Shown here piece by piece: positions 14,986 to 46,908 of a DNA stretch of 64,000 nucleotides. Origin of the DNA: Sphingopyxis sp. (lineage in GTDB: Bacteria; Pseudomonadota; Alphaproteobacteria; Sphingomonadales; Sphingomonadaceae); contig JAEMRT010000003.1 in NCBI GenBank assembly GCA_016463225.1, forward strand, positions 70,073 to 134,072, in the 5' to 3' direction. A program made the position numbers and the translations under genes. The notes under the pieces are model-generated. The model was not told the origin of the DNA. It worked only from the letters and a program-made list of their open reading frames with translations, and did not search any database. Numbering within the stretch: position 1 is the first letter of the stretch; each line of letters opens with the position of its first letter.

Positions 14986-17382
14986 ATGCAGACACATGCG
15001 CGCGTAGTTATCATAGGCGGGGGAGTCATCGGGTGCAGCGTGCTGTACCATCTGACCAAAAATGGCTGGAAAGACGTCGTCCTCATCGAGCGCAAGGAAC
15101 TCACCGCGGGGTCGACCTGGCATGCTGCGGGCGGCTTCCACACGGTGAACGGCAACGCCAATATCTCACGCCTGCAGGCCTATACCTGTGGAATCTACAA
15201 GGAGATCGAGGAACTTTCGGGTCAGGATGTGGGCGCCCATTATTGCGGCGGTCTTCTGGTCGCGGCGACTAAGCCTCGCTGGGAGTTCTTGCGCGCCGAA
15301 CATGCGCGCCACAAGGTGCTGGGCCTGCAATCCGAGCTTGTTGGCCCGGAAGAGATCAAGAAGATGGTCCCCATCATGGACGTCTCGGATGTCCTGGGCG
15401 CGATCTACGATCCCGTCGAGGGCTATCTCGACCCGTCCGGTGCAACGCATGCTTATGCCAAGGCCGCCCGTGCCGCAGGGGCCAAGATCCATCGTCACAC
15501 CAAGGTCGAAGGGCTCGCGCGTCTCGACAGCGGAGAATGGGAAGTCCAGACCGATAAGGGCAACATCATTGCTGAGCATGTCGTCAATGCGGCGGGGCTG
15601 TGGGCGCGCGAAGTCGGCAAGATGGTCGGGGTCGAGCTGCCCCTGATTCCCATGGAACATCATTATCTGGTCACGGAGGATATTCCGGATCTCAAGGACC
15701 TCGCGACCGAAATTCCGCAGGTGGCCGATCTCGATGGCGGTCTTTACCTGCGCCAGGAGCATAAGGGCATCCTTCTGGGGGTTTACGAAAAAAATGCGGT
15801 GCCATGGGCGGTGCCCGGAACGCCTTGGGACTATGCAGAGGATGCGCTACTCATCCCCGATCTCGAGCGGCTGGGTGATGACCTGACGCATGGCTTCGTT
15901 CGTTTCCCCGCGGTGGCGGAAGCGGGGATCAAGCGCATCATCAATGGCCCTTTCACCTTCTCTCCTGACGGCAATCCGCTGGTCGGTCCGATCGCAGGCC
16001 TGCCAGGCTATTGGGTCGCTTGCGGCTGCATGGCCGGCTTCGTCCAAGGCGGCGGCATCGGGCGTTCGCTTGCCGAATGGATTATCGACGGTCAGCCGAG
16101 CATGGACGTCTTTGGAATGGACATTGCTCGTTTCGACCCGAAACTGCCCGAGCCCAACATGATCGCGCGCGCCAAGGAGTTCTACGCGCGGCGCTTCGAC
16201 ATCCCCTATCCCAACGAAACATGGCCGGCCGGACGCCCGCTCAAGACCTCGCCACTCTATCCGGTCTTCGAGCAGAAGAAGGCGGTCTTCACCAGCACCT
16301 TCGGCATGGAAGTTCCGGCCTATTTCCCAAACTCCGACGAAGATTGGCAGGAAACGCCGACCTTTTACCGATCCAATGCCTTTTCGACCATCGGCGCCGA
16401 AGCCCGGTCGGTTCGCGAAGCGGTTGGCGTCATCGAGTTCACGGCGGTCGCAAAATATATCGTCGCCGGCACCGATGCCGAAGCCTTTCTACGCCGCCTG
16501 ATCGCATCGCCTCTGCCAGGTGCGGGGGAGAATGTGCCGGCACTGCTGCTATCGGGCAACGGCCGTATGATCGGCGATCTCAATGTCGCGAAGCTATCGG
16601 ATGGGCGATATTTCGTGACGGCGCCGACCTTCATGCAAGCCCACTATATGCGCTGGTTCGAGCAACATCGGCAGGCATTTGCCGTAACGGTCGAAAATGT
16701 CTCGGAGAATCTTGGCGGCCTTTTCGTGGTAGGACCCAAGGCGCCGGAGTTGATCGACCAGCTGACCGCTCATTACCGGTACGGCAGCGCGCTCGAGGAC
16801 GGCCAGGTGACCGAAGGCGCAGTTGGCTCCGCGCCCTGCCGGATCATCGCATCGAACCGGCTTGGGGTTCTCGGCTTCGAACTCTACACGCCGATCGTCT
16901 ATCTGTATTCGCTCTATCAGCAGATCATGGCGGTGGGCGAGGATCTGGGCGTCCGCGATGTCGGTATCCGCGCCTTCAGCTCATTGGTGATGGAATATAC
17001 GCCAGGTGTCACGCTCCGTGAGATATCGCAGGATCGCAGCGTCGCGGAATGCGGTTATGAAGCGCTGCTGGACGACAGCCGCGATGACTATATCGGGCGC
17101 GCCGGAGCGCTCGCCTCCCTGACAGAAAAACCCAAATATCGTCTGACGGGGCTGCGCGTCGAGACGGTCGATGCCGATCCAGTCGGCGAGGAACCGGTGT
17201 GGATCGGCGAACGCTATGTCGGCCAAACCAGCTCGGGCTATTATGGCCACACGGTCGGGTTTGCCATGGCCATGGCGTTTCTGGAGGAGGACGCCTTTGC
17301 GCCGGGCGCCGAACTGGAAGTGACCGTGCTTGGCGACCGTCACCGCGCGACGATCGTCGAAACGCCGTTTTTCACGGGCTGA
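14986..17382 (+). CDS. FAD-dependent dimethylglycine/sarcosine dehydrogenase-like protein with C-terminal GcvT domain
   Basis: ARVVIIGGGVIGCSVLYHLTKNGWKDVVLIERKELTAGSTWHAAGG; GcvT-like C-terminal half. Confidence 0.88.
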   Translation: MQTHARVVIIGGGVIGCSVLYHLTKNGWKDVVLIERKELTAGSTWHAAGGFHTVNGNANISRLQAYTCGIYKEIEELSGQDVGAHYCGGLLVAATKPRWEFLRAEHARHKVLGLQSELVGPEEIKKMVPIMDVSDVLGAIYDPVEGYLDPSGATHAYAKAARAAGAKIHRHTKVEGLARLDSGEWEVQTDKGNIIAEHVVNAAGLWAREVGKMVGVELPLIPMEHHYLVTEDIPDLKDLATEIPQVADLDGGLYLRQEHKGILLGVYEKNAVPWAVPGTPWDYAEDALLIPDLERLGDDLTHGFVRFPAVAEAGIKRIINGPFTFSPDGNPLVGPIAGLPGYWVACGCMAGFVQGGGIGRSLAEWIIDGQPSMDVFGMDIARFDPKLPEPNMIARAKEFYARRFDIPYPNETWPAGRPLKTSPLYPVFEQKKAVFTSTFGMEVPAYFPNSDEDWQETPTFYRSNAFSTIGAEARSVREAVGVIEFTAVAKYIVAGTDAEAFLRRLIASPLPGAGENVPALLLSGNGRMIGDLNVAKLSDGRYFVTAPTFMQAHYMRWFEQHRQAFAVTVENVSENLGGLFVVGPKAPELIDQLTAHYRYGSALEDGQVTEGAVGSAPCRIIASNRLGVLGFELYTPIVYLYSLYQQIMAVGEDLGVRDVGIRAFSSLVMEYTPGVTLREISQDRSVAECGYEALLDDSRDDYIGRAGALASLTEKPKYRLTGLRVETVDADPVGEEPVWIGERYVGQTSSGYYGHTVGFAMAMAFLEEDAFAPGAELEVTVLGDRHRATIVETPFFTG

Positions 17383-17407: not shown

Positions 17408-18007
17408 TTAGAAATCAGCAAAGCCCGTCAAAACGCGGAAATATATATTCGCCAACCTCATGCGCTCCTGCGGGGTCTCCTGAATATGGAGCGCATAGTA
17501 ACCGATCTGATGGAAATAGACGATCCTGGCTCGGACGAGTGCCTCATCCGCGTCATAGGCTGCCTCCCTGAAAAGGTCCGCGAAGGCGGTGATCCGCTCT
17601 TCGTCGACCTGATGCACGATGGCGGCCACGTCCGGTGATACCAGCGCCCAGTTGCGCACGGCGGTGTCGAAGCGTGGATCAAAATCTCGTTCCTCGATCC
17701 ACAGTGACGCCGCCGCGCGGAATCGTTCGGCGAGCGTGCCAGGGCCTCGGAGTGTGGCGATCAACGGTGCGGTATTGGTCTGGCGCCATTCATCCAACAG
17801 GAGGCCCAGCAGTTCACCGCGATCCTTGAAGCGCCAATAAAAGCCGCCACGGGTAACCCCGCATTCCTTGGCAATTCGGCCGATCTTGACCGCATCTATT
17901 CCATCCCGAACCAGAAGTGCGCGCGCGGCATCGAGCCAGTCCCGCGTCGACAGCGTCTCAATCAGATCCGTATCTTCGCCTTCGCTCAATGTTTTGAACC
18001 AATCCAA
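17408..18007 (-). CDS. TetR family regulator
   Basis: WLDAARALLVRDGIDAVKIGRIAKECGVTRGGFYWRFKDRGELLGLLLDEW. Confidence 0.88.
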   Translation of the reverse strand: MDWFKTLSEGEDTDLIETLSTRDWLDAARALLVRDGIDAVKIGRIAKECGVTRGGFYWRFKDRGELLGLLLDEWRQTNTAPLIATLRGPGTLAERFRAAASLWIEERDFDPRFDTAVRNWALVSPDVAAIVHQVDEERITAFADLFREAAYDADEALVRARIVYFHQIGYYALHIQETPQERMRLANIYFRVLTGFADF

Positions 18008-18068: not shown

Positions 18069-19268
18069 TTAGGCAAGCAGGGCATCTTCAAAAGGATAGT
18101 CATTGAGCAAACACGGGCCGTCGTCGGTGACATGGACCATCTGCTCCAGCTTCACCGCTTCTCGTCCATCGTCGACTGCCACTAGCGCTTCGACACAGAT
18201 TACCATTCCCGCGTCGAGACACACATCCTCGCGCGACGAATCTCGCAGATCCCAGGGATGGCGAATGATCGGCGCCTCGTCGCACATTCCAACACCATGT
18301 GCGATCATCGAATAATAGGTGCCCTGGCATCGCTCGGGAACACGGTAGGCAGCATTTGATATGTCACGATGGCTTACCCCAGGCCGGATCAGGTCGAAAT
18401 TATGCTGAATCTGTTCATGGGCGATCCGATAGATAAAGCGCTGTTCGTCGGTTGGCGCGACATCGCCGCACAGCCAGGAACGTGATATATCTGCGCAGTA
18501 CCCGTTCGGCCCGATCATATCGGTGTCGAAGGAAACGAGGTCCCCAGCCTCGATCTGCCGGTGACCGCATTCCTGAAACCAAGGCTTGGTCTTGGGGCCG
18601 GAGGTCAAAAGGCGGGTCTCGATCCATTCTCCTCCGAGCTCGATGTTCGTCTGCTGGAGGATTGAGAAAAGAGCATTCTCGGTGATGCCGGGTTGCAGCG
18701 CTGCCTGCATCCGGGCCATTCCCTTCTCGCATGCCTGAATCGCCTCGCGCATAGCCAGGATTTCAACGTCGTTCTTGATCCAGCGAGCATGCTCCATCAC
18801 CTGCGTGCCGTTCTCGCTGCGGATGCCGAGTCCTGCGAGCGCGACGGTCATGTGAGGATCTACGACGTCAACTGCCAGTCGACGATTGGCGCCGCCTGCA
18901 CGGCGCAATAGATCGTCGATGTCCATCGCCCAGGCCCGGGTGTCGGCGTCGATGTCCGAACCCGAGATCAGATATGTCGCGCTCTTGCCCGGCCTCGTCT
19001 CCGCGATCGTTTCGATGTCGGCCGAAAGATGCTCCGCGCCCGGAAACTCGAACAGGGTGACTCCGCCGTCCGCCGGAACGAAGGCATAACGCACGCGATT
19101 GTGCAACAGCCAGACCTGCATATTGGGACAGTCGGTCGCATAGCGGATGTTGATCGGATCGAACAGCAAGGCCGCCGGCATGTCACGTTCGCGCAGCTGC
19201 TGCTGAATTCTACCCAGACGATAGGCGCGCAGGGCCGCCCGGTCGATCGTACTGATATGGTAGGTCAT
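18069..19268 (-). CDS. dddP: M24-family, DddP-like (DMSP lyase-like) protein
   Basis: FDTDMIGPNGYCADISRSW, YYSMIAHGVGMCDEAP and VICVEALVAVDDGREAVKLEQ; metal-ligand and Tyr/Asp spacing matches DddP as remembered. Confidence 0.65.
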   Translation of the reverse strand: MTYHISTIDRAALRAYRLGRIQQQLRERDMPAALLFDPINIRYATDCPNMQVWLLHNRVRYAFVPADGGVTLFEFPGAEHLSADIETIAETRPGKSATYLISGSDIDADTRAWAMDIDDLLRRAGGANRRLAVDVVDPHMTVALAGLGIRSENGTQVMEHARWIKNDVEILAMREAIQACEKGMARMQAALQPGITENALFSILQQTNIELGGEWIETRLLTSGPKTKPWFQECGHRQIEAGDLVSFDTDMIGPNGYCADISRSWLCGDVAPTDEQRFIYRIAHEQIQHNFDLIRPGVSHRDISNAAYRVPERCQGTYYSMIAHGVGMCDEAPIIRHPWDLRDSSREDVCLDAGMVICVEALVAVDDGREAVKLEQMVHVTDDGPCLLNDYPFEDALLA

Positions 19269-20485
19269 GCTTTGCGCAGGTCATTGGATTTGAAGGCGGC
19301 CCGCAAGGCCGGCAGGCAGAATGGCAGCAGTCCGACGCAGGCGACAGCCCCGAGGATGCCAACGGCTCCGAAGGAGAAATGCTCAATCAACAAGCCGCCC
19401 AGCGGCGCCCCCAGGGCAAAACCCATGCGCTCGCAGCCGCCACCGGCTGTCCCGATGCGTCCATTGGGATCCAGCGCGGCAGCGGAACCCAGCAGATAGG
19501 AGTAGAGGAACATATAGAAGATCCAATACATCAGGACGCCGAGGCCGAAAGTTACGATCCCTGTGGCGAAGCCTAGAAGGAGGCAAGCGCAGGCCGTGGC
19601 CCCAAAGCCGAGCAGAAGAGCCGGTATTCTAGCGATCCGTCCAGAGAAGGCCGCCGCCACGCCGGTTCCAAGAATGCCGCAGAAGGTGCTCGCCGAAAGC
19701 ACGATGCCGATCGTTTCTGCGTCTACATTCAGGCCGTGGCCGATCCTCTCGGCGAAACTCCACACCGCGCCAGTCCCGAATGAAAAGGCGGACCAGATGG
19801 CGAGCAGCGGCAAAACTCCCTTCTGCTTGAAGGAGATCTGGGGTTGGTGTGCGGGCGCGCGTGGCGGGTTCCTGAACCCCGCATAGGCCGGCATTGTGAT
19901 CCCGAGCAGGATGGCGATGCCCAGAAACGGGCCGAGCGCCCCGAAGCGCGCGCTAGCGAATGGAAGTGCTGCCATCAGCGCGACGATCACCACCAGTGCG
20001 CCACCATTGGCGATCGCATAGACCCGGTCGGCATTGCCGGAGGCTGCCACGCCCGAGACCATCGCGGCAAAGACCAGCCCATAACCGGCGCCGGCGATGG
20101 CCGCGATCAGATACAGCAGAGGCAGGATGTTCGGCGCGAAGTAGAGACCAACATGCGCGAGAAGGCAGATTAGGGCGCCCGTGAACGCGACGCGTGCGGG
20201 CGTGAGCCGATGAATGAAGGGGGAAACGAGCAACATCGACAGAGAGAGTGCGCCGACTTCGAAAAAGCCGAATGTTCCAGCGGCGCTTGCACTGAGCCCC
20301 AGGCCGTCCATCAGCGCACCGACCTGGAACGGCATCGTTGATGTGCCCAGATGAGCGACACCCGCTCCAACGCAGGCCGCGACCACCGTTCGCATCGGCG
20401 CCTTCCCTGATGACACACCCTCTACAACGGGAATGATCCCACCTTCATGTTCGATCTCTAAAGCCATCCCCGATTTACCTTTCAT
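19265..20485 (-). CDS. MFS transporter
   Basis: Multi-TM protein; 4-nt overlap with the downstream DddP-like gene. Confidence 0.82.
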   Translation of the reverse strand: MKGKSGMALEIEHEGGIIPVVEGVSSGKAPMRTVVAACVGAGVAHLGTSTMPFQVGALMDGLGLSASAAGTFGFFEVGALSLSMLLVSPFIHRLTPARVAFTGALICLLAHVGLYFAPNILPLLYLIAAIAGAGYGLVFAAMVSGVAASGNADRVYAIANGGALVVIVALMAALPFASARFGALGPFLGIAILLGITMPAYAGFRNPPRAPAHQPQISFKQKGVLPLLAIWSAFSFGTGAVWSFAERIGHGLNVDAETIGIVLSASTFCGILGTGVAAAFSGRIARIPALLLGFGATACACLLLGFATGIVTFGLGVLMYWIFYMFLYSYLLGSAAALDPNGRIGTAGGGCERMGFALGAPLGGLLIEHFSFGAVGILGAVACVGLLPFCLPALRAAFKSNDLRKA

Positions 20486-20710: not shown

Positions 20711-21817
20711 ATGGAATTGACGGTTAGTCTTGCTGCGGGAAGCTCGTTTATGGGTGTATTAGCGGTTCGCGAAGCATTGATGGGACGGCAAGGAGGCTTG
20801 GAGGAGGCTTTCGACGGGCTGGAGGACAGTCTTGCCTCCTCGATCCATACCTTGCCGCGTTCGGATTGCACCTTGGCCTCCGCACGTTTCGATGTCTGCA
20901 GCCGCGAGGGCGAGGGCTATTGGGAGTTCCTCAGGCTAGGCCCGGACCTATTCGCAATCGTATCAAATGTCCTCTATTCTCAGGCCGTCACGATCCCAGT
21001 GGTAGGCGAGGATTGGGTTGAGTTTCATTTTCGTCTCTCTGGGGAATTGAAGCTAGTCGAAGGTGAGGACTGCGTCGATGTATCTCCGGATAGCCTGCTG
21101 ATCTGGCGGCAGCCCAGGGGTTGCGATATCATCGAGTATCTCAACGGCGACGGGAAGCGCGAAACATCCGTAACCTTTTACTGTCGCCCCAGCTTTTTCG
21201 AGCGCCATTTTGGAGGGCTGGCCTCTTTGCTCGACGATGGCCTTGCGGAGACATTAGGCGCCCAATGCGATCAGCTTCAGCTGCTGCGGGCCGTGCTGTA
21301 CCCGGCACTGTCTCGCCTTATTATCGATTTTGCGTCCACCAGCGACCGTCCGGGGATTCTACTGGTCAAGGCAGAGAGCCTTGCGGTGCAGATCATCAGC
21401 GAGGTCCTATTGAATGTGCCTCTGCAGGGTAGGGTGGATGCATCGCATACGAGACTGAGTGATCAGGATTTCAAATGCCTCCGCGCCGCCCGGCAGATTT
21501 TGCTCGAGCAGCATGCACCGCCCCCCACCATCGAGCAGTTAGGCCGCCGGATTGGTATGAGCGGAACCAAGCTGAAATGCGGATTCCGTATGCTCTTCGG
21601 GCAGACCATCTCGCAATTTGCTAACGAACTTCGCATGTCGGCAGCGAAGGAAATGCTTCGCAAGTGCGATCGGCCGATCGCGCAGGTCTCAGCCGAGTTG
21701 GGCTATGAATATCAAAACAGTTTCACCGTTGCGTTCCGGCGCAGGTGGGGGGTTCTTCCCAAGGATTACAGGCGCGATCCCTTGGCTTATGATCAATCAC
21801 CGACCGTCGCAGCCTAA
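20711..21817 (+). CDS. AraC family regulator
   Basis: C-terminal double HTH: TIEQLGRRIGMSGTKLKCGFRMLFGQTISQF...AQVSAELGYEYQNSFTVAFRRRWGVLPKDYRR. Confidence 0.85.
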   Translation: MELTVSLAAGSSFMGVLAVREALMGRQGGLEEAFDGLEDSLASSIHTLPRSDCTLASARFDVCSREGEGYWEFLRLGPDLFAIVSNVLYSQAVTIPVVGEDWVEFHFRLSGELKLVEGEDCVDVSPDSLLIWRQPRGCDIIEYLNGDGKRETSVTFYCRPSFFERHFGGLASLLDDGLAETLGAQCDQLQLLRAVLYPALSRLIIDFASTSDRPGILLVKAESLAVQIISEVLLNVPLQGRVDASHTRLSDQDFKCLRAARQILLEQHAPPPTIEQLGRRIGMSGTKLKCGFRMLFGQTISQFANELRMSAAKEMLRKCDRPIAQVSAELGYEYQNSFTVAFRRRWGVLPKDYRRDPLAYDQSPTVAA

Positions 21818-22740
21818 ATGCCGGGCACGGCCAACCGCTCTATATAGCCTTTCAGTTCCGAGGCTCCGGTCCGCTTACGCGACGGCGCGGACCAGATGAG
21901 ATAATAAGCGAAGCCGGTGGCAAGTGAGACGTCGAACGGCGCCGCCAAGCCCTGGGCCGCAAGATTTCTGTCTGCCAATCGGGTGTCCGCAAGCGCGAGC
22001 CCGGCACCAGCACGCGCAAATTCGATCGCCAAGGCGGCAGTTTCGAACGCGAGCGACGATGGCTTGAACGCATTGATCCCATTGGCGTGCGCGAACCTTC
22101 GCCACAAATGATCCTGCGGGTAGCCTTCCAACTGGACATGAAGCAAGTCCTCCTGCCGCAGTGCTTCTTCAAGCCCGATCGCCTTAATCCGCGGGGCATC
22201 GTCGATACTGCAGAGCGGCGTCATCGAGATCGGCCAAAGCAGGGTTCGGCCGTCTTTATGATCGCCGATATGATCGAAGATGATGGCGATATCATAGTCC
22301 CCGGACGGTATGCCCGTGCTGTAGGTGCTCATGATCGTGAGCCCCAATCCCTGATGCTCCTCCTTGAACCGCTGAATGAACGGCAGTCCCATGGTCTGCA
22401 CGAAGGTGGGCGGAACATGTAAGGTGAGAATCGCATCTGTGCTGACCTGATCGAGCGCGCGAACCAGGACGTCAAATGCCCGCTGCACCGCCGGCAAAAG
22501 TTGCTCTCCGGCCTCCGTCAGGCGAATGGCCTTGCCCGAACGAAGGAACATGCGTCTGCCGACGATCTCCTCCAGCCGGGCGATATGCCGGCTGCACGCG
22601 CTTTGCGCGATGTTGAGCGCGTCGGCGCCGAGCGTAAAGCTGCGCGCGCGCGCAACCGCTTCGAAGGCCCGCAAGGCGTTGAGTGGAAGATCGCGACGCG
22701 AATATGTCATAACAATATCCATCTCATTTAGGCATAACAT
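21814..22740 (-). CDS. LysR family regulator (GcvA-like)
   Basis: LPLNALRAFEAVARARSFTLGADALNIAQSACSRHIARLEEIVGRRMFLR. Confidence 0.88.
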   Translation of the reverse strand: MLCLNEMDIVMTYSRRDLPLNALRAFEAVARARSFTLGADALNIAQSACSRHIARLEEIVGRRMFLRSGKAIRLTEAGEQLLPAVQRAFDVLVRALDQVSTDAILTLHVPPTFVQTMGLPFIQRFKEEHQGLGLTIMSTYSTGIPSGDYDIAIIFDHIGDHKDGRTLLWPISMTPLCSIDDAPRIKAIGLEEALRQEDLLHVQLEGYPQDHLWRRFAHANGINAFKPSSLAFETAALAIEFARAGAGLALADTRLADRNLAAQGLAAPFDVSLATGFAYYLIWSAPSRKRTGASELKGYIERLAVPGI

Positions 22741-22808: not shown

Positions 22809-24035
22809 ATGGATCTTGACCAGCTGCGGCATCTGATCGGAACGCGACGCCCTTGGCACTCGCTTCCCCAGCAATTTTATCTCGATCGAGAGATCTTTGA
22901 GATCGAGAAAAAGGCGATTTTCGAACGCTCCTGGGCAATGATCGGACTTGAGGCGCAGCTCGACCGGCCGGGCGCCTATATCGCAACTAAAATCGGCTCG
23001 ACGCCCGTCATGGTGCTGCGCAACAAGGAAGGCGACATTGCTGGCTTCTACAATAGCTGCCGGCATCGCGGCGCGCAGATTTGCGCCTCTGGAACCGGGC
23101 GGGTCCCGCGGCTGGTCTGCCCCTACCACCAATGGACCTATGATCTCGACGGGCGCCTGCTCGTCGCGCGCCGCATGGGCGAGGATTTCGATAAGGGTGA
23201 GCACGGACTGCGCCCGATACGGATCGAGACGGTGGCCGGCTGCATCTATGCCTGCCTGGCCGAGGACGCACCCGATTTCACGCCCTTTCGCGCTGCGCTC
23301 GAGGCGGCACTGGAGCCGCAGGGACTGCGCAATGCGAAGGTCGCGCACGTCGCCCGACTTGAGGAGCATGCGAACTGGAAGCTGGTCGTCGAGAATGGCC
23401 GCGAATGCCATCATTGCGCGGTCTGCCATCCCGAACTGATCAAGGCGTTCCCAATCAACATGGCTGATGGCGCGACCTTTCACGAGAACACTGCCGAGAT
23501 GCCCTTCATGGCGCGGATGCGCGAAGTCGGCTTGGGCCACGCCGCGGTCGAGGACAGTTGGTGGCAGGTGGGCCGCTTCCCGTTCAGCGACGGCGTGGTA
23601 TCCTATTCGGTGGATGGCAAACCCCTGGCCGACAAGCGCCTTTGCGATCTCAACGGTGGCGATATCGGATCGCTGCGATGGGCCATCGAGCCCAACAATT
23701 TCTGCCATGCGACAGGCGACTGCGCGATCATGGTCAACATGGATCCAGTGGACGTGCTGCGCACCGACGTGACGGCGACATGGTTTGTCCACAAGGACGC
23801 GGTCGAGGGCGTCGACTATCACATCGACCGGCTGATCCATGTATGGGACCAGACCAACCGGCAAGACCGCGACCTTGCCGAGAACAATCAGCGCGGCGTC
23901 AGCGGATCAGGCTATGTGCCAGGCCCCTATTCGCCCGAGGCCGAGAGTTATGTGAACAGTTTCGTAGACTGGTATTGCACCCGGATGCTCGAAATCATTC
24001 CAGACCAAATCGAGCACGCTGCACTGAATTGCTAA
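22809..24035 (+). CDS. Rieske non-heme iron oxygenase alpha subunit, quaternary-ammonium demethylase-like (Stc2/GbcA/CntA group)
   Basis: Rieske CRHRGAQIC...CPYHQWTYDLDG; ENGRECHHCAVCHPEL mononuclear iron motif. Confidence 0.82.
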   Translation: MDLDQLRHLIGTRRPWHSLPQQFYLDREIFEIEKKAIFERSWAMIGLEAQLDRPGAYIATKIGSTPVMVLRNKEGDIAGFYNSCRHRGAQICASGTGRVPRLVCPYHQWTYDLDGRLLVARRMGEDFDKGEHGLRPIRIETVAGCIYACLAEDAPDFTPFRAALEAALEPQGLRNAKVAHVARLEEHANWKLVVENGRECHHCAVCHPELIKAFPINMADGATFHENTAEMPFMARMREVGLGHAAVEDSWWQVGRFPFSDGVVSYSVDGKPLADKRLCDLNGGDIGSLRWAIEPNNFCHATGDCAIMVNMDPVDVLRTDVTATWFVHKDAVEGVDYHIDRLIHVWDQTNRQDRDLAENNQRGVSGSGYVPGPYSPEAESYVNSFVDWYCTRMLEIIPDQIEHAALNC

Positions 24036-24259: not shown

Positions 24260-25378
24260 TCAGAACACCACGACTGACCGGATGCTCTCGCCCGCATGCA
24301 TGAGGTCGAAGCCTTTGTTGATCTCTTCGAGGCCCATGACGTGGGTGATCATCGGGTCGATCTCGATCTTGCCGGTCATATACATGTCGACGATCTTGGG
24401 CACGTCGGTGCGGCCCTTGGCGCCGCCGAACGCGGTGCCGCGCCAGTTGCGGCCGGTAACGAGCTGGAACGGACGCGTCGCGATCTCCTTGCCCGCCTCG
24501 GCGACACCGATGATGATCGAGGTGCCCCAGCCGCGGTGGCAGGCTTCCAATGCGGTGCGCATCACGTCGGTGTTGCCCGTGGCATCGAAGGTATAGTCAG
24601 CGCCGCCGTCGGTCAGCTGGACGATCGCGGCCACCGTGTCTTCGCGGCTCATGCCCTTGCTATTGAGGAAGTCGGTCATGCCGAACTTGCGGCCCCATTC
24701 CTCACGCGCGGGATTGATGTCGACGCCGATGATCTTGTTGGCGCCTGCGAGGCGCGCGCCCTGAATCACGTTGAGGCCGATGCCGCCGAGCCCGAAGATC
24801 ACGACATTGTCGCCGACCTGAACCTTGGCGGTGTTGATCACCGCACCGACGCCGGTGGTCACGCCGCAGCCGATATAACAGCTCGACTGGAACGGCGCGT
24901 CCTCACGGATTTTCGCGACCGCGATCTCGGGCAGCACGGTGAAGTTTGAGAAGGTCGAGCAGCCCATATAATGGAAGATCGGCTGCCCCTTGTACGAAAA
25001 GCGCGTCGTGCCGTCGGGCATCAGCCCCTTGCCCTGCGTGGCGCGGATCGCGGTGCAGAGGTTGGTCTTGCCCGAAAGGCAGCTTTTGCACTGGCGGCAT
25101 TCGGGGGTGTAGAGCGGGATGACATGGTCGCCGGGGACGACGCTGGTGACGCCGGCGCCGACCTCGCGCACGACGCCTGCCCCCTCATGCCCCAGCACGC
25201 TCGGAAAGATGCCTTCGCTGTCGAAGCCGTCGAGCGTGTAAGCGTCGGTGTGGCAGATGCCCGTCGCCATGATCTCGACCAGCACTTCGCCCGCCTTGGG
25301 GCCTTCGAGGTCGAGTTCGACGATTTCGAGCGGCTTTTTCGCTTCGAACGCAACGGCAGCACGGGTCTTCACGATCAC
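24260..25378 (-). CDS. frmA: S-(hydroxymethyl)glutathione dehydrogenase/class III alcohol dehydrogenase
   Basis: [58 protein letters not shown]. Confidence 0.93.
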
Positions 25379-27908: not shown

Positions 27909-28811
27909 TCAAGCGGCGCGAGTGCCCGAAGACCCTAACCGATCCCGGCAAGCAAGTTCCGCCGCCGCCAAAGTGTTCTTGAGAAGACATGCGATCGTCA
28001 TGGGTCCCACTCCGCCCGGAACGGGCGTGATGGCGGAGGCTACGGGAGCAGCTTCGTTAAATCGTACATCGCCGACGATCCGCGCCTTGCCGGTCTCCGG
28101 GCAGAGGATGCGATTGATACCGACGTCGATGACGACGGCGCCCTGCTTGATCCACGATCCCCGCACCAGGCCGGGTGCGCCCGCCGCGACCACCAGAATG
28201 TCAGCCTGTGCGACGATGTCCGGCAGGTCCCGGGTATGGATGTGCGCGATGCTCACCGTGCAGCGCGCCTGCAGAAGGAGCTCCGCCATAGGCCGCCCGA
28301 CGATGGTGGAGCACCCCACGACGACGGCGTGGAGGCCCTCCAGATTGCCGAGCTGTTCGGACAACAGCAGCATGCACCCCAGCGGCGTGCACGGGACGAT
28401 GGCCGGCGCCCCCACCGCGAGCTTGCCGGCATTGACGATATGAAAACCGTCAACGTCCTTGTTCGGATCGATCCCGCTCAATACGCGGCCGCGATCGATA
28501 TGCGCCGGCAGCGGGAGCTGAACGAGGATCCCGTGGACGCCGGCATCGCCGTTGAGGCGGTCGATCAAGTCCAGCAGCTCGGTTTCACTGATTTCGGACG
28601 GAAGTTTGAAGCTAAGCGACCGCATGCCGACTTCCTGCGTGTGCTCGCCCTTCCGCCGGACATAAATGGCGCTGGCGGGGTCGTCGCCGACGAGGATCGC
28701 GGCAAGCGTCGGTTGCACGCCGAATTCGGCGGCTAACCGCTCGGTGGCGGTGGCGATCTCAGCGCGAATCCGCTGAGCAGTGGCTTTTCCGTCGATGATT
28801 TTCGCGGCCAT
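27909..28811 (-). CDS. folD: Methylenetetrahydrofolate dehydrogenase/cyclohydrolase, copy 1
   Basis: [55 protein letters not shown]. Confidence 0.93.
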
Positions 28812-28906
28812 TTCAGTCTCCGCTGGAGGAACGCTGAGGAGTTGCAAGCCTCTATATGGCCAGTTAATGACAAGCAATACACTACTGTATCGTCAAAGGA
28901 TCGCAT

Positions 28907-30166
28907 GTGGGAATCCATGGGTACTCAGGCTGGAGAGTATTTCGGGAAGGTCTGAGGGATCAGGCCGGATGGAAACGGGCGTGGAGAAGCCCCGAGCCGA
29001 AATCCCGTTACGACGTGGTCATCATCGGCGGCGGCGGCCACGGACTGGCCACCGCCTATTATCTTGCGAAGACATACGGGATTCGGAACATCGCGGTTCT
29101 GGAAAAGGGATGGCTGGGTGGCGGCAATACCGGCCGCAACACGACGGTGATCCGCTCCAATTATTATTATCGCGAGAGCGCGGCGCTCTACGATCATTCG
29201 ATGAAACTCTACGAAGGGCTGTCGCGCGAGCTCAATTATAATGTCATGTTCAGCCAGCGCGGAGTCATCGCACTAGCGCACAGCCGGCACGATCTGGACG
29301 CGGTGCAGCGCTGGGTCGGGGCGATGCGCATCAACGGCGTCGATACCGACATCCTCTCGCGCGAAGAGATCGCGCGCCGCGTGCCGATCCTCGATATGTC
29401 GCCCGAGGCCCGCTATCCGGTGCTCGGCGGCTTCGTGCAGAAGCGCGCGGGGACAGCGCGCCATGATGCCGTCGCTTGGGGCTATGCCCGCGCTGCTGAC
29501 ATGCTGGGCGTCGACATCATCCAGCAATGCGAAGTCACCGGCTTCCGCCGGCATCCGAACGGCGTGATCGCCGGGGTCGAAACCTCGCGTGGTTTCATAG
29601 GCGCCAAGAAGGTCGCGATGGCAGTGGCAGGCCATTCGACCGTGCTGGCGGACATTGCGGGCTTCCGCCTGCCGGTCACCAGCTATGCGCTGCAGGCTTT
29701 CGTCACCGAACCGCTTAAGCCCGTGCTCGACACCGTCGTGCTGTCGCTGGCGACGGGCGTCTACCTCAGTCAGTCAGACAAGGGCGGGCTGGTGATCGGC
29801 GGCTCTCTCGATCTCTACCCCTCCTACGCCCAGCGAGGGAATATACCGACGGTGCGCAACGTGCTCGGCGCGGTGGCGCAGCAATATCCATCGCTCGGGC
29901 GGGTTCGCTTCCTGCGGCAATGGGCAGGCATCGTCGATGTCGTCGCCGATTCCAGCCCGATCCTCGGCGCCACGCCGATTCCCGGACTTCTGATCAACTG
30001 CGGATGGGGCACCGGCGGCTTCAAGGCGATCCCGGCCGGCGGAACCATGCTCGCTCATCATCTGGCAACCGGCGAGCCGCATGCGCTCGCACGCCCCTTT
30101 TCGCTCGAACGGTTTTCGACCGGGGCGCTGATCGACGAGGCCGCGGCCTCCGGTATCGCTCACTGA
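28907..30166 (+). CDS. soxB: Sarcosine oxidase subunit beta
   Basis: YDVVIIGGGGHGLATAYYLAKTYGIRNIAVLEKGWLGGGNTGRNTTVIRSNY; GTG start. Confidence 0.93.
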   Translation: MGIHGYSGWRVFREGLRDQAGWKRAWRSPEPKSRYDVVIIGGGGHGLATAYYLAKTYGIRNIAVLEKGWLGGGNTGRNTTVIRSNYYYRESAALYDHSMKLYEGLSRELNYNVMFSQRGVIALAHSRHDLDAVQRWVGAMRINGVDTDILSREEIARRVPILDMSPEARYPVLGGFVQKRAGTARHDAVAWGYARAADMLGVDIIQQCEVTGFRRHPNGVIAGVETSRGFIGAKKVAMAVAGHSTVLADIAGFRLPVTSYALQAFVTEPLKPVLDTVVLSLATGVYLSQSDKGGLVIGGSLDLYPSYAQRGNIPTVRNVLGAVAQQYPSLGRVRFLRQWAGIVDVVADSSPILGATPIPGLLINCGWGTGGFKAIPAGGTMLAHHLATGEPHALARPFSLERFSTGALIDEAAASGIAH

Positions 30167-30178
30167 GGTATTACCAAG

Positions 30179-30463
30179 ATGCTGCTGATTACCTGCCCCT
30201 GGTGCGGTCCTCGCGAAGAACTCGAATTCCGCTGCGGGGGCGAGAGCCATATCCAGCGCCCGGGTCCCTCCGAGACGGTCTCCGACGAAAGCTGGGGCGA
30301 TTATCTGTTCACGCGCAAGAACCCCAAGGGCATGCATTACGAACGCTGGGTTCACCTCTTCGGTTGTCGGCGCTGGTTCAATGTAGCGCGACATACCGCG
30401 ACACACCGGATCGAGGCGATCTACGAAATGCACGAGCCCGCGCCGTCCGGAGGCGCGCTATGA
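30179..30463 (+). CDS. soxD: Sarcosine oxidase subunit delta
   Basis: MLLITCPWCGPREELEFRCGGE; HLFGCRRWFNVARHTATHRI. Confidence 0.93.
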   Translation: MLLITCPWCGPREELEFRCGGESHIQRPGPSETVSDESWGDYLFTRKNPKGMHYERWVHLFGCRRWFNVARHTATHRIEAIYEMHEPAPSGGAL

Positions 30464-33381
30464 CCGCGCGGGTCGCCGGTGGCGAGATCAACCGTTTGAA
30501 GCCGCTCCGCTTCACCTGGGAGGGCAGGGCCTATACCGGCTTCGAAGGCGATACCTTAGCCTCTGCGCTGCTCGCAAATGGCGTGCGGGTGGTGGGCCGG
30601 TCGTTCAAATATCATCGGCCGCGCGGCATCATCGCCGCCGGGGTCGAGGAGAGCAATGCGCTCGTCCAGTTGGGAACCGGCGCCCGCAGCACGCCCAATA
30701 TGCGCGCGACGGAGATCCGTCTCTACGACGGGCTGGTAGCGAACCCGGTCAATTGCTGGCCCAGCGCCCGTTTCGATGTCGGTGCGGTCAACAATCTGGC
30801 GTCGCGCTTCCTGTCGGCTGGCTTTTACTACAAGACCTTCATGTGGCCGGACTGGCACCTCTATGAGGGGTTCATCCGGCGCGCGGCGGGCCTGGGCAAG
30901 GTTGCAAAGCAAGCCGATCCCGATCGCTACGAAAGCCGTTTCGCCCATTGCGACGTGCTGGTGGTCGGCGCCGGGCCGGCGGGGCTGACTGCAGCGCTGG
31001 AAGCGGCGTGGACCGGGGCGCGAGTGATCCTGGTTGAGCAGGACAATGAGGTCGGCGGCGCGCTGCATCAGGATGAGCGCACGATCGACGGAAAGATTGG
31101 CACCTTCTGGGCGAAGCGCACCGCCGCTGCGATCGCGCAATTCCCCGAAGCGCGGATCCTGCTGCGCACCGCGGCGGTCGGTTATCACGATCACAACAGC
31201 CTGACCCTGGTCGAGCAGGTCGGCGACGAGGCGGCCTGCGCGGCAGACCCGCGTACGGCGCGCTACCGGACCTGGCTGGTCCGCGCGCGGCAAGTGATCC
31301 TCGCGACCGGCGCCATCGAGCGACCGCTAGTGTTTTCGGGCAATGACCGGCCGGGCGTCATGCTCGCCTCGGCCGCGCGGCACTATGCCCGCCGCTATGC
31401 CGTGCTGCCCGGCAAAAATGCGGTCGTCTTCACCAACAATGACGACGCCTACCGGACCGCAATGACGCTCCATGATCTTGGGGGCAGGGTCGAGGCGGTG
31501 GTCGATCTTCGGCCCCATGTCTCGGCGGACCTGATCCGCGATCTCGACGCCCGCGGCATCTCGCTCCTGACCGGCAGCAGCGTGACCGATACGAAGGGCG
31601 CAAAGGGCCTATCCGCCGTCAAAGTGGGTTCGCGCTGGCTGCGATGCGACACGCTGTGCATGTCGGGCGGCTATAATCCGACCGTCCACCTGCTCAGCCA
31701 GTCGGGCGGGCAGCTTCGGTTCGACGAAGCAATCGCGAGCTATGTTCCCGCGCGGTCGGCGCAGGCCGAGGTCTCGGTCGGCGCGGCGTCCGGCGCTTTC
31801 GGTCTCAGCGATGCGCTTGCCCAGGGCCATGAAGCGGGACGCGCGGCAGCCGTCGCCGCCGGGTTCGACCCCGGGGCCGAACCGGTGCCCGAAAGCGGCC
31901 CGGAGCGCGCTGAGGCCTCGCTGCTTCCATCCTGGCATATTGAAGGCGGCCGCAACAAAGCGTTCGTCGATTTCCAGAACGACGTGAGTGCTGCTGATAT
32001 CGCGCTGGCAGCGCGTGAGAATTTCCAGTCGATCGAGCATCTCAAACGCTACACCACGCTCGGCATGGCGGCCGACCAGGGCAAAACCTCCAACGTGAAT
32101 GCGCTAGCGATCATGGCGTCGCTAACTGGGCGCAGCGTCGAGGAGACCGGGCACACCCGCTATCGCTTTCCCTATGTTCCGATGGCGCTCGGCGCGCTCG
32201 CGGGTCAAACCCGCGGCGAGATATTCCGGCCGCTGCGACGCCTGCCCGCCGATCGCTGCCATGCGGAAGCGAGCGCAGTGTTCGAAGATTTCGGCGGCTG
32301 GGCAAGGCCCGCCTATTATCCGCAGCCGGGAGAGACCCGGCATCAGGCCGAACGGCGCGAAGCGCTGGCCGTGCGCAACACGGTCGGCCTGTTCGACGGC
32401 TCCCCGTTGGGCAAGATTGAGGTGAAGGGCCCCGACGCGGCACGCTTTCTTGACCTCATCTATGCCAATACCATGTCGACGCTGAAGCCCGGCAAGGTCC
32501 GTTACGGCCTGATGCTGAGCGAGACGGGCGTCGTCATCGACGATGGCGTGGCAACCCGCCTGGGCGACGACCATTTCCTCGTCGGCACTTCGAGCGCGGG
32601 AGCCGAACGGATCGCGGCGTGGATGGAGGAATGGCTGCAATGCGAGTGGCTCGATTTCGATGTTCTCGTCGCGCCCGTCACCACCTCCTGGGGTGTGGTC
32701 ACGCTGACTGGGCCTGGCGCCAAGACGCTGCTTGCCAAGGTCGGCACCGATATCGATCTCGACGCCTTCCCCCATATGAGTTTCGCGATCGGCCATGTTG
32801 GCGGCATCCCGGCGCGCGTGTTCCGTGTCAGCTATACTGGCGAAACCTCTTATGAGATCAACGTCCCGGCGCGCGCGTCGGAGGGGCTGTGGCGCTTGCT
32901 GCTGACCGAGGGGCAGACGGACGGGATCACGCCGATCGGCATCGACGCATGGGATGTGCTGCGGACAGAAAAGGGCTATCTCCATATCGGCGCCGATACC
33001 GACGGCACGACCAACGCGCTGGATGTGGGCTGGTCCCATATCCTCAAGAAGACCAACGAGTTCATAGGCAAGCGCTCGCTGCTGCGGCCCGCAGACCAGC
33101 ACGCCGACCGGCTCAATTTCGTCGGCCTCGCCGCCGCGCCGGGGCAGCCCAAATTGCCCATCGGCGCCCATATCACGAGTGGCGGAGGCGAGAGCGAGGG
33201 CTATGTCACTTCCTCGGCGTTCAGTCCCTTCCTTCAGAGGCCGGTAGCGCTCGGCATGCTGCGCAACGGCCGGGCGCGGCTGGGCGAGCCGGTCCGCCTG
33301 ATCTGCGGGGGCGAGACTTTCACTGCCACGATCGTCGATCCGACATTCTACGACAAGCAAGGGGAGCGGCTGCGTGACTGA
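30460..33381 (+). CDS. soxA: Sarcosine oxidase subunit alpha
   Basis: RAYTGFEGDTLASALLANGVRVVGRSFKYHRPRGI; C-terminal GcvT domain; start set to ATG 30460 overlapping soxD. Confidence 0.93.
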   Translation: MTARVAGGEINRLKPLRFTWEGRAYTGFEGDTLASALLANGVRVVGRSFKYHRPRGIIAAGVEESNALVQLGTGARSTPNMRATEIRLYDGLVANPVNCWPSARFDVGAVNNLASRFLSAGFYYKTFMWPDWHLYEGFIRRAAGLGKVAKQADPDRYESRFAHCDVLVVGAGPAGLTAALEAAWTGARVILVEQDNEVGGALHQDERTIDGKIGTFWAKRTAAAIAQFPEARILLRTAAVGYHDHNSLTLVEQVGDEAACAADPRTARYRTWLVRARQVILATGAIERPLVFSGNDRPGVMLASAARHYARRYAVLPGKNAVVFTNNDDAYRTAMTLHDLGGRVEAVVDLRPHVSADLIRDLDARGISLLTGSSVTDTKGAKGLSAVKVGSRWLRCDTLCMSGGYNPTVHLLSQSGGQLRFDEAIASYVPARSAQAEVSVGAASGAFGLSDALAQGHEAGRAAAVAAGFDPGAEPVPESGPERAEASLLPSWHIEGGRNKAFVDFQNDVSAADIALAARENFQSIEHLKRYTTLGMAADQGKTSNVNALAIMASLTGRSVEETGHTRYRFPYVPMALGALAGQTRGEIFRPLRRLPADRCHAEASAVFEDFGGWARPAYYPQPGETRHQAERREALAVRNTVGLFDGSPLGKIEVKGPDAARFLDLIYANTMSTLKPGKVRYGLMLSETGVVIDDGVATRLGDDHFLVGTSSAGAERIAAWMEEWLQCEWLDFDVLVAPVTTSWGVVTLTGPGAKTLLAKVGTDIDLDAFPHMSFAIGHVGGIPARVFRVSYTGETSYEINVPARASEGLWRLLLTEGQTDGITPIGIDAWDVLRTEKGYLHIGADTDGTTNALDVGWSHILKKTNEFIGKRSLLRPADQHADRLNFVGLAAAPGQPKLPIGAHITSGGGESEGYVTSSAFSPFLQRPVALGMLRNGRARLGEPVRLICGGETFTATIVDPTFYDKQGERLRD

Positions 33382-33910
33382 GGCAGGCTGGACGGCATCG
33401 GCCGACGCAATCCGCATCTCCCGTCTCCCGGCGGCGCGGCTGTCGGTTCTTCGCGTGCGCAAGCCGAACGAGGCCGTGGTCGCGTCGATTGCCAAGGCGC
33501 TTAGCTCGGAATTGCCGCTGGAGCCGAACACGGTGGCGGTCGGCTCCGCGCGGACGCTGTGGCTGGCGCCCGGCGAATGGCTCATCGTCGATCACGCGGT
33601 CGAGGGCGGCGCAATCGAAGCGGCCGCGCCGGTCGCGCACATCGTGGAGGTCACCGATGGACGCGTGGTCTATGAGGTCGCCGGACCCAATGCAGAGACC
33701 CTGTTAGCCAAGGGCTGCACGCTAGACTTCCACCCGCGCGCCTTCGCGCCCCAATCCTGCGCTCAGTCCGCGCTGGCCCAAACCTTAGTGCTCATCGAGC
33801 GAACGGATCAACAGACGTTCCATATTTATGCGGACGCGAGTTTGGCACGACATCTCGAACTCTGGTTCGAAGATGCGCTGATCGAATTTCAACTGGGGAA
33901 ACTCCACTGA
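33374..33910 (+). CDS. soxG: Sarcosine oxidase subunit gamma
   Basis: Small GcvT-like protein immediately after soxA; LAPGEWLIV motif. Confidence 0.82.
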   Translation: MTEAGWTASADAIRISRLPAARLSVLRVRKPNEAVVASIAKALSSELPLEPNTVAVGSARTLWLAPGEWLIVDHAVEGGAIEAAAPVAHIVEVTDGRVVYEVAGPNAETLLAKGCTLDFHPRAFAPQSCAQSALAQTLVLIERTDQQTFHIYADASLARHLELWFEDALIEFQLGKLH

Positions 33911-34761
33911 TGCGGCCACCCTATATCCTGACCGTCCGCTGCCCCGACGTGCGCGGCATCGTCGCCTCGACGACGACCTTCCTTGCCGAGCAGGATTGCT
34001 CGATCGTCGAAGCCCATCAACATCAGGATGGCGGCATGTTCTTCATGCGCGTCGCTTTCGAGACAGATGGGGCGAATGACGAAACGATCAGCAAGCTGGA
34101 AGAACGCTTTCGGCCGATCGCCGCACGGCTGGCAATGGAGGCGCATTTCCACGATCGCACGGTGAAGCCGCGCGTCCTGCTCATGGTGTCGAAGTTCGGC
34201 CATTGTCTGTTCGACCTGCTGAATCGCTGGCGGGCGGGACAGCTTCCGGCGGACATCGTCGGCGTCGTATCCAACCACGACGACATGCGCTCGTTCGTGG
34301 AATGGAACGGGCTACCCTATCACCATTTTCCGGTCACCAAGGAGACCAAGGCGGAGCAGGAGCGCAAGATCATCGATCTCGTCGAAAGCGCGAATGTCGA
34401 CCTGGTCGTGCTTGCCCGCTACATGCAGATCCTGTCCCCGACCCTGTGCGCCGTGCTGTCGGGGCGCTGCATCAACATCCATCACAGCTTTCTACCGAGC
34501 TTTAAGGGCGCCAAGCCCTATCATCAGGCGCACGCGCGCGGCGTGAAGGTGATCGGCGCCACCGCGCATTATGTGACGACCGATCTCGATGAGGGGCCGA
34601 TCATCGAACAGGATACCCGTCGCGTGAATCATGCGCGCGGACCGGAGGATCTCGTCGTCATCGGGCAGGAGGTCGAATGCTCCGTCCTCGGTCGAGCGGT
34701 CCAGTGGCATCTCGACCGCCGCGTTATGATGAACGGGACGCAGACCATTGTTTTTGAATAG
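33910..34761 (+). CDS. purU: Formyltetrahydrofolate deformylase, copy 1
   Basis: ACT N-terminus; RCINIHHSFLPSFKGAKPYHQAHARGVKVIGATAHYVTTDLDEGPIIEQ. Confidence 0.93.
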   Translation: MRPPYILTVRCPDVRGIVASTTTFLAEQDCSIVEAHQHQDGGMFFMRVAFETDGANDETISKLEERFRPIAARLAMEAHFHDRTVKPRVLLMVSKFGHCLFDLLNRWRAGQLPADIVGVVSNHDDMRSFVEWNGLPYHHFPVTKETKAEQERKIIDLVESANVDLVVLARYMQILSPTLCAVLSGRCINIHHSFLPSFKGAKPYHQAHARGVKVIGATAHYVTTDLDEGPIIEQDTRRVNHARGPEDLVVIGQEVECSVLGRAVQWHLDRRVMMNGTQTIVFE

Positions 34762-34762
34762 G

Positions 34763-34794
34763 GTGCCCGCGACCGCGCATATCGAGTTTGGATG
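34763..34794 (+). repeat. Short copy of a folC 3' segment (candidate folC relic)
   Basis: GTGCCCGCGACCGCGCAT is an exact 18-nt match to 10464..10481, followed by 12 of 13 matching bases with a 1-nt insertion. Confidence 0.6.
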
Positions 34795-34815
34795 AAGTTC
34801 CCGCCCGAAGCGATG

Positions 34816-36024
34816 CTAAATTGCGCGTTCTGTGCAGTCGGCGGCTGGCGCAGACTCGACCTTTGGTGCAAGTAGGTTGAACAGGAGCGGCCCCATCGCG
34901 GAGCTTAGAATTGCGACGAGCACCATTGCCGCATTGGTGGCAGGATCGAAAACACCGATCCGGGTCGCGATGTCCGAGGCAGCCACGATCAGGCTCAGGC
35001 GCGCGCTCAGCAAGGTTCCCGCAGCAATGGCGTTTCGGGTCCCGTAATCGGGGATCATGAGAAGGGACGGCAGAAATTTATTGCCGAACGCGACGGCGAG
35101 AAACCCGGGAACCAGCCACAGCGCCGTCGACGATGAGACGAGGGCAGCAAGATCGAATTTCAGCCCGACATTGATGAAGAAGAAGGGAACGACAAAGCCA
35201 TAGCCAATAGCTTCGATCATCTCGCGCCTTTGCCCCCCTCTTGGGATGACTCTGCCCAGCAAAAGTCCGGCAAGAAAGGCTGCAAGAACCAACTCGGAGC
35301 CCAGCCCCTCGGCAAGGAAAGCCGCCACAAACAAAAGGGCGAAGCTTGCGCGAACGAGAGGGAGGCTTGTCCGGCTATCGAACCTGGAGGCAGGGAGGCG
35401 AATAAGGAAGCGCGGTAGGAGCCAGATCAGGAGAAACGCAATTCCAACCAGCGTGAGGCTACCCAACGCCCCCCATGCGCCGCCCGCGACGATGATGCCC
35501 GCCAAGGCTGAAATGCCGATCATGGTGAAGAAATCTGCGAGGAGCGCCGTCGAAAGGATCGTCTGACCGTAAGGCCTGTCCGCCAAGCCTCGTTCCTGCA
35601 CTGTCGGCACGACGATTCCGACCGACGTTGTCGAGAGGATCACCGCATAGATGGCAATATGAAGAAGCGGCGTCGCGCGATCAAGAAGCAGCCAGGCACC
35701 CACCGCTGCGAGAGCGAACGTCGTCAGAGACATAGTCAGCGCAAGCTTGAGGGGGCTGGCGCCTCGCGGCGTGTTTTGCCGTCCGAGCAACATATCGAGG
35801 TCGATCTCAAGCCCCGCTATCAGCATCAGCACGGCAAAGCCGAGCTGGGCGAGCACAGTCATGACGGATGAAGGGGCCAGCAGGCCGAGGCCGCTTGGGC
35901 CGATCGCGATCCCGAAGGCGATCTCGAATACCAGCGCCGGCATCAATGCTCTCGGAACCCACCGTGCGACGACGGCGGCGATGGCGCTGCCAGCACAAAC
36001 AAGCGCAAGGGTGGCAGTCACCAT
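34816..36024 (-). CDS. Cation:proton antiporter (CPA2/Kef-like membrane domain)
   Basis: FGIAIGPSGLGLLAPSSVMTVLAQLGFAVLMLIAGLEID; multi-TM. Confidence 0.85.
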   Translation of the reverse strand: MVTATLALVCAGSAIAAVVARWVPRALMPALVFEIAFGIAIGPSGLGLLAPSSVMTVLAQLGFAVLMLIAGLEIDLDMLLGRQNTPRGASPLKLALTMSLTTFALAAVGAWLLLDRATPLLHIAIYAVILSTTSVGIVVPTVQERGLADRPYGQTILSTALLADFFTMIGISALAGIIVAGGAWGALGSLTLVGIAFLLIWLLPRFLIRLPASRFDSRTSLPLVRASFALLFVAAFLAEGLGSELVLAAFLAGLLLGRVIPRGGQRREMIEAIGYGFVVPFFFINVGLKFDLAALVSSSTALWLVPGFLAVAFGNKFLPSLLMIPDYGTRNAIAAGTLLSARLSLIVAASDIATRIGVFDPATNAAMVLVAILSSAMGPLLFNLLAPKVESAPAADCTERAI

Positions 36025-36461
36025 CAGTCTGCGAGCGCCTTCTCATGACTAAGGCTGTTTTGGGCGAAACCGGCGCGCAGGAGCCGTTGAACCAGGCGCT
36101 CGGCGAGTGAACGGCGTACCGGCAGATCATCCCGAAGCTTGACCCAGGAGTTCATGCTGATTCCGAAGGTGGCCATTACGCAGGGAGGCGTCTGCGCAGG
36201 CAGCTGCTCTCGCATTCGCTCGACTAGGCCTCGCTCGACGCGGCACATTCGAAATGTGCCCGTGTTGGGTGCAGAAATAAGATAGGCAGCGAGCACATCC
36301 TTATGGTCCGGCGGCATCGTCATGCCGCACCCATTGTTTGACTTTGGGTACACAGAAGCCTTGCCTGAAATGCCTGTCCCACCATCCACCCCGATCATTG
36401 TTGGAACATCTGTCCAGTTGGACACGCCTATCTTCGCTTCATTTGCCGGAAGCCGATGCAC
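36024..36461 (-). CDS. Hypothetical protein overlapping the antiporter start
   Basis: 145 aa ORF; stop overlaps antiporter ATG (TGATG); C-terminal FGISMNSWVKLRDDLPVRRSLAERLVQRLL looks HTH-like. Confidence 0.4.
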   Translation of the reverse strand: MHRLPANEAKIGVSNWTDVPTMIGVDGGTGISGKASVYPKSNNGCGMTMPPDHKDVLAAYLISAPNTGTFRMCRVERGLVERMREQLPAQTPPCVMATFGISMNSWVKLRDDLPVRRSLAERLVQRLLRAGFAQNSLSHEKALAD

Positions 36462-36584
36462 CCCTACCTAAAGCGCAGCGATCCAAACGCCCAACCCGCA
36501 TCTTGAATGCCGTTTATCTGGAATTCGGCTTGAGCTTGGTTGTGGGAGCGGGCCGTCGCCGGGTTTTCACGCAACCCGGATGGA

Positions 36585-37424: not shown

Positions 37425-37555
37425 TTGACTTGCCTCAAGAAAAAAAGTCCATGCGCACGACGAATGGCGCGTGCCCAATCACCGATTTAGGATCTTCTTT
37501 CCGCCAAAGAAGCGATGGAATATTGATATTTCCCATCTATTATGTAGATGGAAGT

Positions 37556-39327: not shown

Positions 39328-39330
39328 CGA

Positions 39331-46838: not shown

Positions 46839-46908
46839 GGTGCGGCCTTTCGAAAAATGGCCGGTCTCGCGGGCCCTGGGAGGAGGTGCGAGACCGGCAG
46901 GAGAGAGC

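Follow-up and report, generated by a model that had tools for sequence, protein, structure and literature searches.

Of the bacterial genes for DMSP lyases, that of DddP is reported as the commonest in the ocean (PMC10686828); the enzyme has a millimolar Km, and its origin has been described no further than as a derivation from M24 peptidases (PMC5395565). In the mechanism described for it, the carboxylate of the substrate is bound by a metal pair, the dimethylsulfonium is held in place by a Trp and a Tyr, and the alpha proton is removed by an Asp (PMC5395565, PMC4108388). The DddP residues matched below are described in PMC4108388, and the Trp, the Tyr and the His-to-Asp/Phe exchanges of DddP in PMC5395565.

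A protein with much of this equipment is encoded on the reverse strand at positions 18069 to 19268 of the window, that is, the whole stretch of 64,000 nucleotides analysed here. This DddP-like M24-fold metalloenzyme (P0001, 399 residues; assigned from PDB and NCBIfam matches and from its catalytic residues), hereafter the M24 protein, had been proposed in an earlier note as a DMSP lyase. When all PDB chains were searched, its four best matches were DddP chains (4rzy, 4s01, 4s00 and 4b28), with E-values of 5e-87 for 4rzy and 4e-85 for 4b28, the match spanning nearly the whole protein and the identity to solved DddP being about 39% over nearly full length. The next matches were far weaker, namely PepE (4ege, E 9e-18) and then prolidases, and the creatinase 7yto reached E 7.7e-4. 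By sequence comparison the likeness to DddP is far beyond chance, and the protein was rightly described as closer to DddP than to prolidase or creatinase. With these two it shares the pita-bread C-terminal domain, whereas their substrate-binding His is replaced.

The motif spacings given in the earlier note are exact: D-x-D-x9-D (FDTDMIGPNGYCAD) maps onto D295, D297 and D307 of RlDddP, Y-x4-H-x5-D (YSMIAHGVGMCD) onto Y366, H371 and D377, and E-x14-E (EALVAVDDGREAVKLE) onto E406 and E421. The alignment to RlDddP thus has all six metal ligands (D295, D297, D307, H371, E406, E421) kept, together with W95, F278, Y366 and D377, the positions of W95 and F278 having been located here from the alignment rather than taken from the papers. 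At position 278, prolidase-type M24 enzymes have their substrate-binding His, as do two other M24 proteins (paralogues) of the same genome. Beside the catalytic residues, the M24 protein differs from DddP in having A379 for W, L408 for A and M423 for Q, exchanges consistent with an altered pocket; L408 alone is not telling, because the DddP of P. yeei also has it. Catalytic creatinases lack a metal site; a creatinase feeding sarcosine oxidase was ruled out as an identity for the M24 protein, which keeps that site and is far from creatinase.

A betaine-demethylation island around the M24 gene

Genes of betaine and C1 metabolism, with a TonB receptor gene among them, span about 15 to 35 kb of the window, and the placement of the M24 gene beside an N-betaine demethylation block, as claimed earlier, is borne out by its DMGDH-like, Rieske and sarcosine oxidase neighbours. 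Convergent with the M24 unit lies a DAO-GcvT fusion gene (14986 to 17382, forward strand) for a DMGDH-like N-demethylase, which matches the PDB DMGDH structure 5l46 at 498 bits and is 43-47% identical to copies near the M24 genes of the related loci L047, L048 and L056. On the other side, a Rieske oxygenase (22809 to 24035, forward) of the same type as the betaine demethylases GbcA and Stc2 scores 406 bits against GbcA (NCBIfam cut-off 670) and matches PDB 3vca and 4qup, which we take to be the stachydrine demethylase Stc2, at E of about 1e-98. It is followed by an S-(hydroxymethyl)glutathione dehydrogenase for formaldehyde oxidation (24260 to 25378, reverse; TIGR02818, 604 bits, over cut-off) and by FolD of C1-folate metabolism (27909 to 28877, reverse; NF010785, over cut-off). 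The sarcosine oxidase genes, all on the forward strand, comprise those for the beta (28907 to 30166; TIGR01373, 684 bits) and alpha (30478 to 33381; TIGR01372, 1240 bits) subunits, both over cut-off, for a probable delta subunit of 94 residues (30179 to 30463), assigned from its sequence and its position between these two, and for a probable gamma subunit of 178 residues (33374 to 33910), assigned by position only and with no NCBIfam match at E ≤ 1e-30. The formyltetrahydrofolate deformylase gene purU comes next (33910 to 34761, forward; NF004684 and TIGR00655, over cut-off). As annotated, the island reads as a path from a quaternary betaine through a dimethyl and a monomethyl amine to the free amino acid, and its gene set would cover the conversion of betaine to dimethylglycine, sarcosine and glycine, with the C1 units passing to glutathione and folate.

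Since the assembly (G000) consists of 239 contigs with 7.17% estimated contamination, statements on absent genes and on other contigs carry some doubt. Acrylate/3-HP genes, for which a nearby search had been suggested, are not found among the annotated neighbours of the M24 gene, and the sole AcuI/YhdH over cut-off in the genome is on another contig. Ferredoxin-reductase homologues likewise sit on contigs other than that of the M24 gene, and MttB is not found in this genome. DMSP demethylation by DmdA was considered and rejected for this genome, in which DmdA has no match over cut-off.

A 4-nt overlap (ATGA), just as the earlier note had it, couples the M24 gene to an upstream gene for an MFS transporter of 406 residues (19265 to 20485, reverse; Pfam MFS_1, 46 bits), whose product has no PDB relative at E ≤ 0.01. 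Downstream of the M24 gene and in the same orientation, a TetR-family regulator gene (17408 to 18007, reverse; Pfam TetR_N and sequence) lies at a distance of 61 nt, an AraC-family regulator gene (20711 to 21817, forward; Pfam HTH_18) is divergent from the MFS-M24 unit, and a GcvA-like LysR regulator gene (21814 to 22740, reverse; NCBIfam GcvA, 154 bits, below cut-off) comes after it; a promoter and terminator scan stayed at chance level. The MFS-M24 pair was rejected as a conserved module, since at E ≤ 1e-3 this MFS protein has no homologue in any of the loci retrieved; other MFS genes adjoin the M24 gene in L040 and L107. Within its own order, the Sphingomonadales, relatives at E ≤ 1e-60 are encoded in just 5 of 401 genomes, its own included, with no more than 46-48% identity to the M24 protein in the remaining four, so that the M24 gene was likely gained by horizontal transfer.

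Other features of the window stand on their own. Two FolD and two PurU genes lie within one 12-kb stretch (27909 to 40188). At 45966 to 48282, a gene for an aromatic O-demethylase resembling LigM/DesA (506 bits against a cut-off of 800) lies beside a weak MTHFR-like gene, the pair being a second folate-linked demethylation unit, and positions 61690 to 63609 match a macrolactam (lasso-peptide type) cyclase family weakly (79 bits, cut-off 300).

Features that set DddP apart

An alignment of 98 rows was made from the M24 protein, 95 relatives, the majority of which are not DddP, and two solved DddPs. In it the six metal ligands and Y366 hardly vary anywhere in the DddP-like superfamily and therefore do not discriminate DddP; calling DddP from metal-ligand motifs is thereby ruled out, and the residues that had been cited as a DddP signature, although present, are not specific. 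W95 (72 of the 98 rows), F278 (79) and D377 (79) vary between subfamilies, and the DddP letters at all three are shared by L047, L048 and L056, whose M24 genes adjoin MttB and DMGDH-like genes.

Three sequence features do set DddP apart, namely the NCBIfam score, an N-terminal extension and the position in the tree. The M24 protein scores 377.9 bits against the NCBIfam DddP model NF043017, below the curated equivalog cut-off of 600, which is exceeded in 12 of 385 class-level genomes, and it is one of many lower-scoring members. All DddP-clade members inspected carry an N-terminal extension of about 40-50 residues (RKIDP...GPTxLA), whereas the M24 protein has 11 N-terminal residues where they have about 50-60, and its open frame, with 403 codons in all, is too short to include the extension; in most members scoring less than about 450 bits the alignment begins no earlier than model position 45-52. 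In a tree of 53 rows with 1000 bootstraps, an 18-row DddP clade is split from all other rows at 100/99, and the M24 protein lies outside it, grouped with L047/L048 at 97/97. Joining it to core DddP is rejected by the AU test (p=0.006), its placement with the N-extended set is marginal (p=0.096) and a position beside the whole DddP clade is not rejected (p=0.32). Because of this score, the missing extension and the outcome of the tree and AU tests, the M24 protein is assigned to the DddP-like superfamily but not to DddP as defined, and the DMSP lyase label given to it earlier is not supported; it may be one of DddP's nearer outgroups.

When considered against the described systems, the M24 protein shares the fold and catalytic residues of DddP (RlDddP 4rzy/4s00/4s01 and RdDddP 4b28) and differs in the features just listed, in A379 and M423 for W379 and Q423, and in its betaine rather than acrylate setting. 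Closer to it are the M24 proteins of L047 and L048 (52-53% identity), which have the same catalytic residues, likewise lack the extension and have a DMGDH-like neighbour, but are partnered by MttB instead of a Rieske oxygenase, with no MFS coupling seen. Another example are proteins of Rhizobium and Paraburkholderia assigned to the Xaa-Pro peptidase family, members of the same superfamily with 43-48% identity that adjoin an Stc2-type Rieske oxygenase in islands of the stachydrine/hydroxyproline-betaine type. These differ in having Y or M in place of F278 and form a separate clade (100/99).

Gene neighbourhoods across the superfamily

The betaine setting had been thought unusual for a DddP-type system, a view that a wider sample does not uphold. 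In 80 M24 loci from the class, of up to 20 kb each, 10 MttB, 7 DMGDH-like and 2 Rieske genes lie within 1.5 kb of the M24 gene; these 19 genes fall in 17 loci, the other 63 having none at that distance, and 16 of them share the strand of the M24 gene. Only 4 such genes occur in the controls (40 stretches from the same genomes, 796 kb), so that with about 397 kb of loci within 2.5 kb of M24 the demethylase density near M24 is about ten-fold above control. Any of the three classes is present in 24 of the 80 M24 stretches and in 3 of the 40 controls (Fisher p=0.0036), a p-value to be read with the classes having been picked after the first neighbourhoods were viewed and with loci that are not independent.

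The arrangements themselves are varied. L047 and L048, the closest relatives, have same-strand MttB-M24-DMGDH runs, in which, for L047, one pair of neighbouring genes is about 14 nt apart and the other overlaps by about 25 nt, and MttB also adjoins M24 in L056, L066 and L007. Annotated plasmids of Rhizobium and Paraburkholderia carry Rieske-reductase-M24 runs, near which lie genes for hydroxyproline catabolism, for a betaine ABC transporter, or for formaldehyde oxidation with ETF and an NADH:flavin oxidoreductase. On pSymA of S. meliloti, MttB, M24 and isochorismatase-family genes occur with a glycine-betaine ABC transporter, and in Parasedimentitalea DMGDH-like, M24, MttB and sarcosine oxidase genes lie together. 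The betaine setting thus recurs across the wider DddP-like family and is not an oddity. MttB-type MtgB proteins go up in Ruegeria pomeroyi on glycine betaine (PMC12478193); a literature search on M24 proteins with betaine demethylases found nothing.

Some loci are of note in their own right. In L114 (4326 to 8032), the start of a canonical DddP gene, whose product scores 866 bits and shares 79% identity with RlDddP, overlaps the stop codon of a DMGDH-like DAO-GcvT gene (TGATG), and in L080, also of the DddP clade, such a gene lies 433 nt from the DddP gene; bona fide DddP can therefore also be coupled to an N-demethylase-like gene. Two cupin 'DMSP lyase family' genes (L044, 29860 to 30555; L179, 19181 to 19771) sit in Rhizobium betaine islands with a DddP-like M24 gene, a hint that the enzymes of betaine catabolism may include relatives of the cupin DMSP lyases as well. 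On a plasmid of Pseudomonas MPC6 (L040, 21186 to 28870), genes for a DddD-like CoA transferase, a BCCT transporter, an iron alcohol dehydrogenase and a methylmalonate-semialdehyde dehydrogenase, a set that looks like a DMSP cluster, are within about 13 kb of a DddP-like M24 gene. In Paracoccus yeei (L176, 9824 to 15523), DddP is flanked by the genes of an alcohol dehydrogenase and of a mandelate racemase family protein, after which come genes of the hydantoinase A/B type.

Candidate substrates and the ancestry of DddP

The explanation that we prefer, with about an even chance of being right, is that the M24 protein, as a di-metal member of the DddP-like superfamily, functions within an island for the catabolism of N-methylated betaines. 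Because it falls outside the DddP group and has betaine-demethylation genes around it, as many relatives do, its main substrate is more likely a nitrogen betaine than DMSP, which is unlikely in that role and may be a side substrate. A carboxylated methyl-ammonium compound is the simplest reading, since the Trp/Tyr pocket would suit a methylated ammonium. In such a scheme, the MFS protein would import a carboxylated, methylated-ammonium solute, whose carboxylate would be held on the metal pair, probably iron, and whose cationic methylated head would sit in the aromatic pocket of W95 and Y366, which in DddP takes the dimethylsulfonium. D377 could then serve as base or general acid in a cleavage by elimination or hydrolysis, the methylated product would next be demethylated by the Rieske, DMGDH-like and sarcosine-oxidase enzymes, with the C1 units going to FrmA, FolD and PurU. 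What the sequences show is the family, and with it the fold, the residues and the link of the family with demethylases; both the substrate class and the chemistry are inferred. Against this explanation count the convergent, rather than operonic, layout of the M24 gene and the DMGDH-like gene of the window, and that we know of no substrate for any superfamily member other than DddP, as do the lack of MttB in this genome, the ferredoxin-reductase homologues on other contigs and the 63 loci with no demethylase gene close to M24.

Among the alternatives, a prolidase-kind metallopeptidase or amidase that acts on a conjugate or dipeptide, freeing a methylated amino acid or proline-type compound, and so feeds the demethylases, survives best, yet is improbable. 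It would agree with the M24 fold, with the full set of metal ligands and with the several relatives adjoining hydroxyproline/proline-betaine type genes; it is at odds with the far weaker match of prolidase-type chains than of DddP and with Phe in place of the substrate-binding His at 278, retained in the two same-genome M24 proteins, and for RlDddP itself Val-Pro activity was not measurable (PMC5395565). Somewhat less probable still is a working DMSP lyase, with the MFS protein taking up DMSP and the M24 enzyme releasing DMS and acrylate. The residues reported essential in DddP are all there, W95, F278 and D377 among them (PMC4108388, PMC5395565), DddP is the best structural relative, the AU test does not reject a sister position to the wider DddP clade and the Pseudomonas MPC6 relative lies about 10 kb from the DddD-like CoA-transferase gene; the low score, the missing extension, the rejected grouping with core DddP, the exchange of W379 and Q423 and the lack of annotated acrylate/3-HP neighbours argue against it, and the same residues recur in relatives whose genes belong to betaine operons with MttB or Rieske genes. 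That the MFS-M24-TetR unit is an unrelated insertion without a betaine role, as its convergence with the DMGDH-like gene, its own TetR and the rare, patchy relatives in the order might suggest, is about equally doubtful, for the family-wide demethylase link and the MttB-M24-DMGDH runs would then be coincidence.

Taken further, the preferred role in betaine catabolism leads to a more tentative proposal, which we regard as possible but less probable than the explanation that it extends: the superfamily would consist of di-metal enzymes that process betaines, cleaving quaternary-ammonium carboxylates by the DddP mechanism, the climate-relevant lyase DddP would have been recruited from among them, and the M24 protein, with a betaine as its substrate, would count as a 'nitrogen DddP'. 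Counts of dddP in metagenomes that rely on metal-ligand motifs or loose E-values could then include betaine enzymes of soil and plant bacteria. If the relatives are indeed betaine-catabolism enzymes with the same catalytic site, DddP, which may have been recruited from betaine catabolism, would gain a concrete ancestor, and a substrate class would be given for assays.
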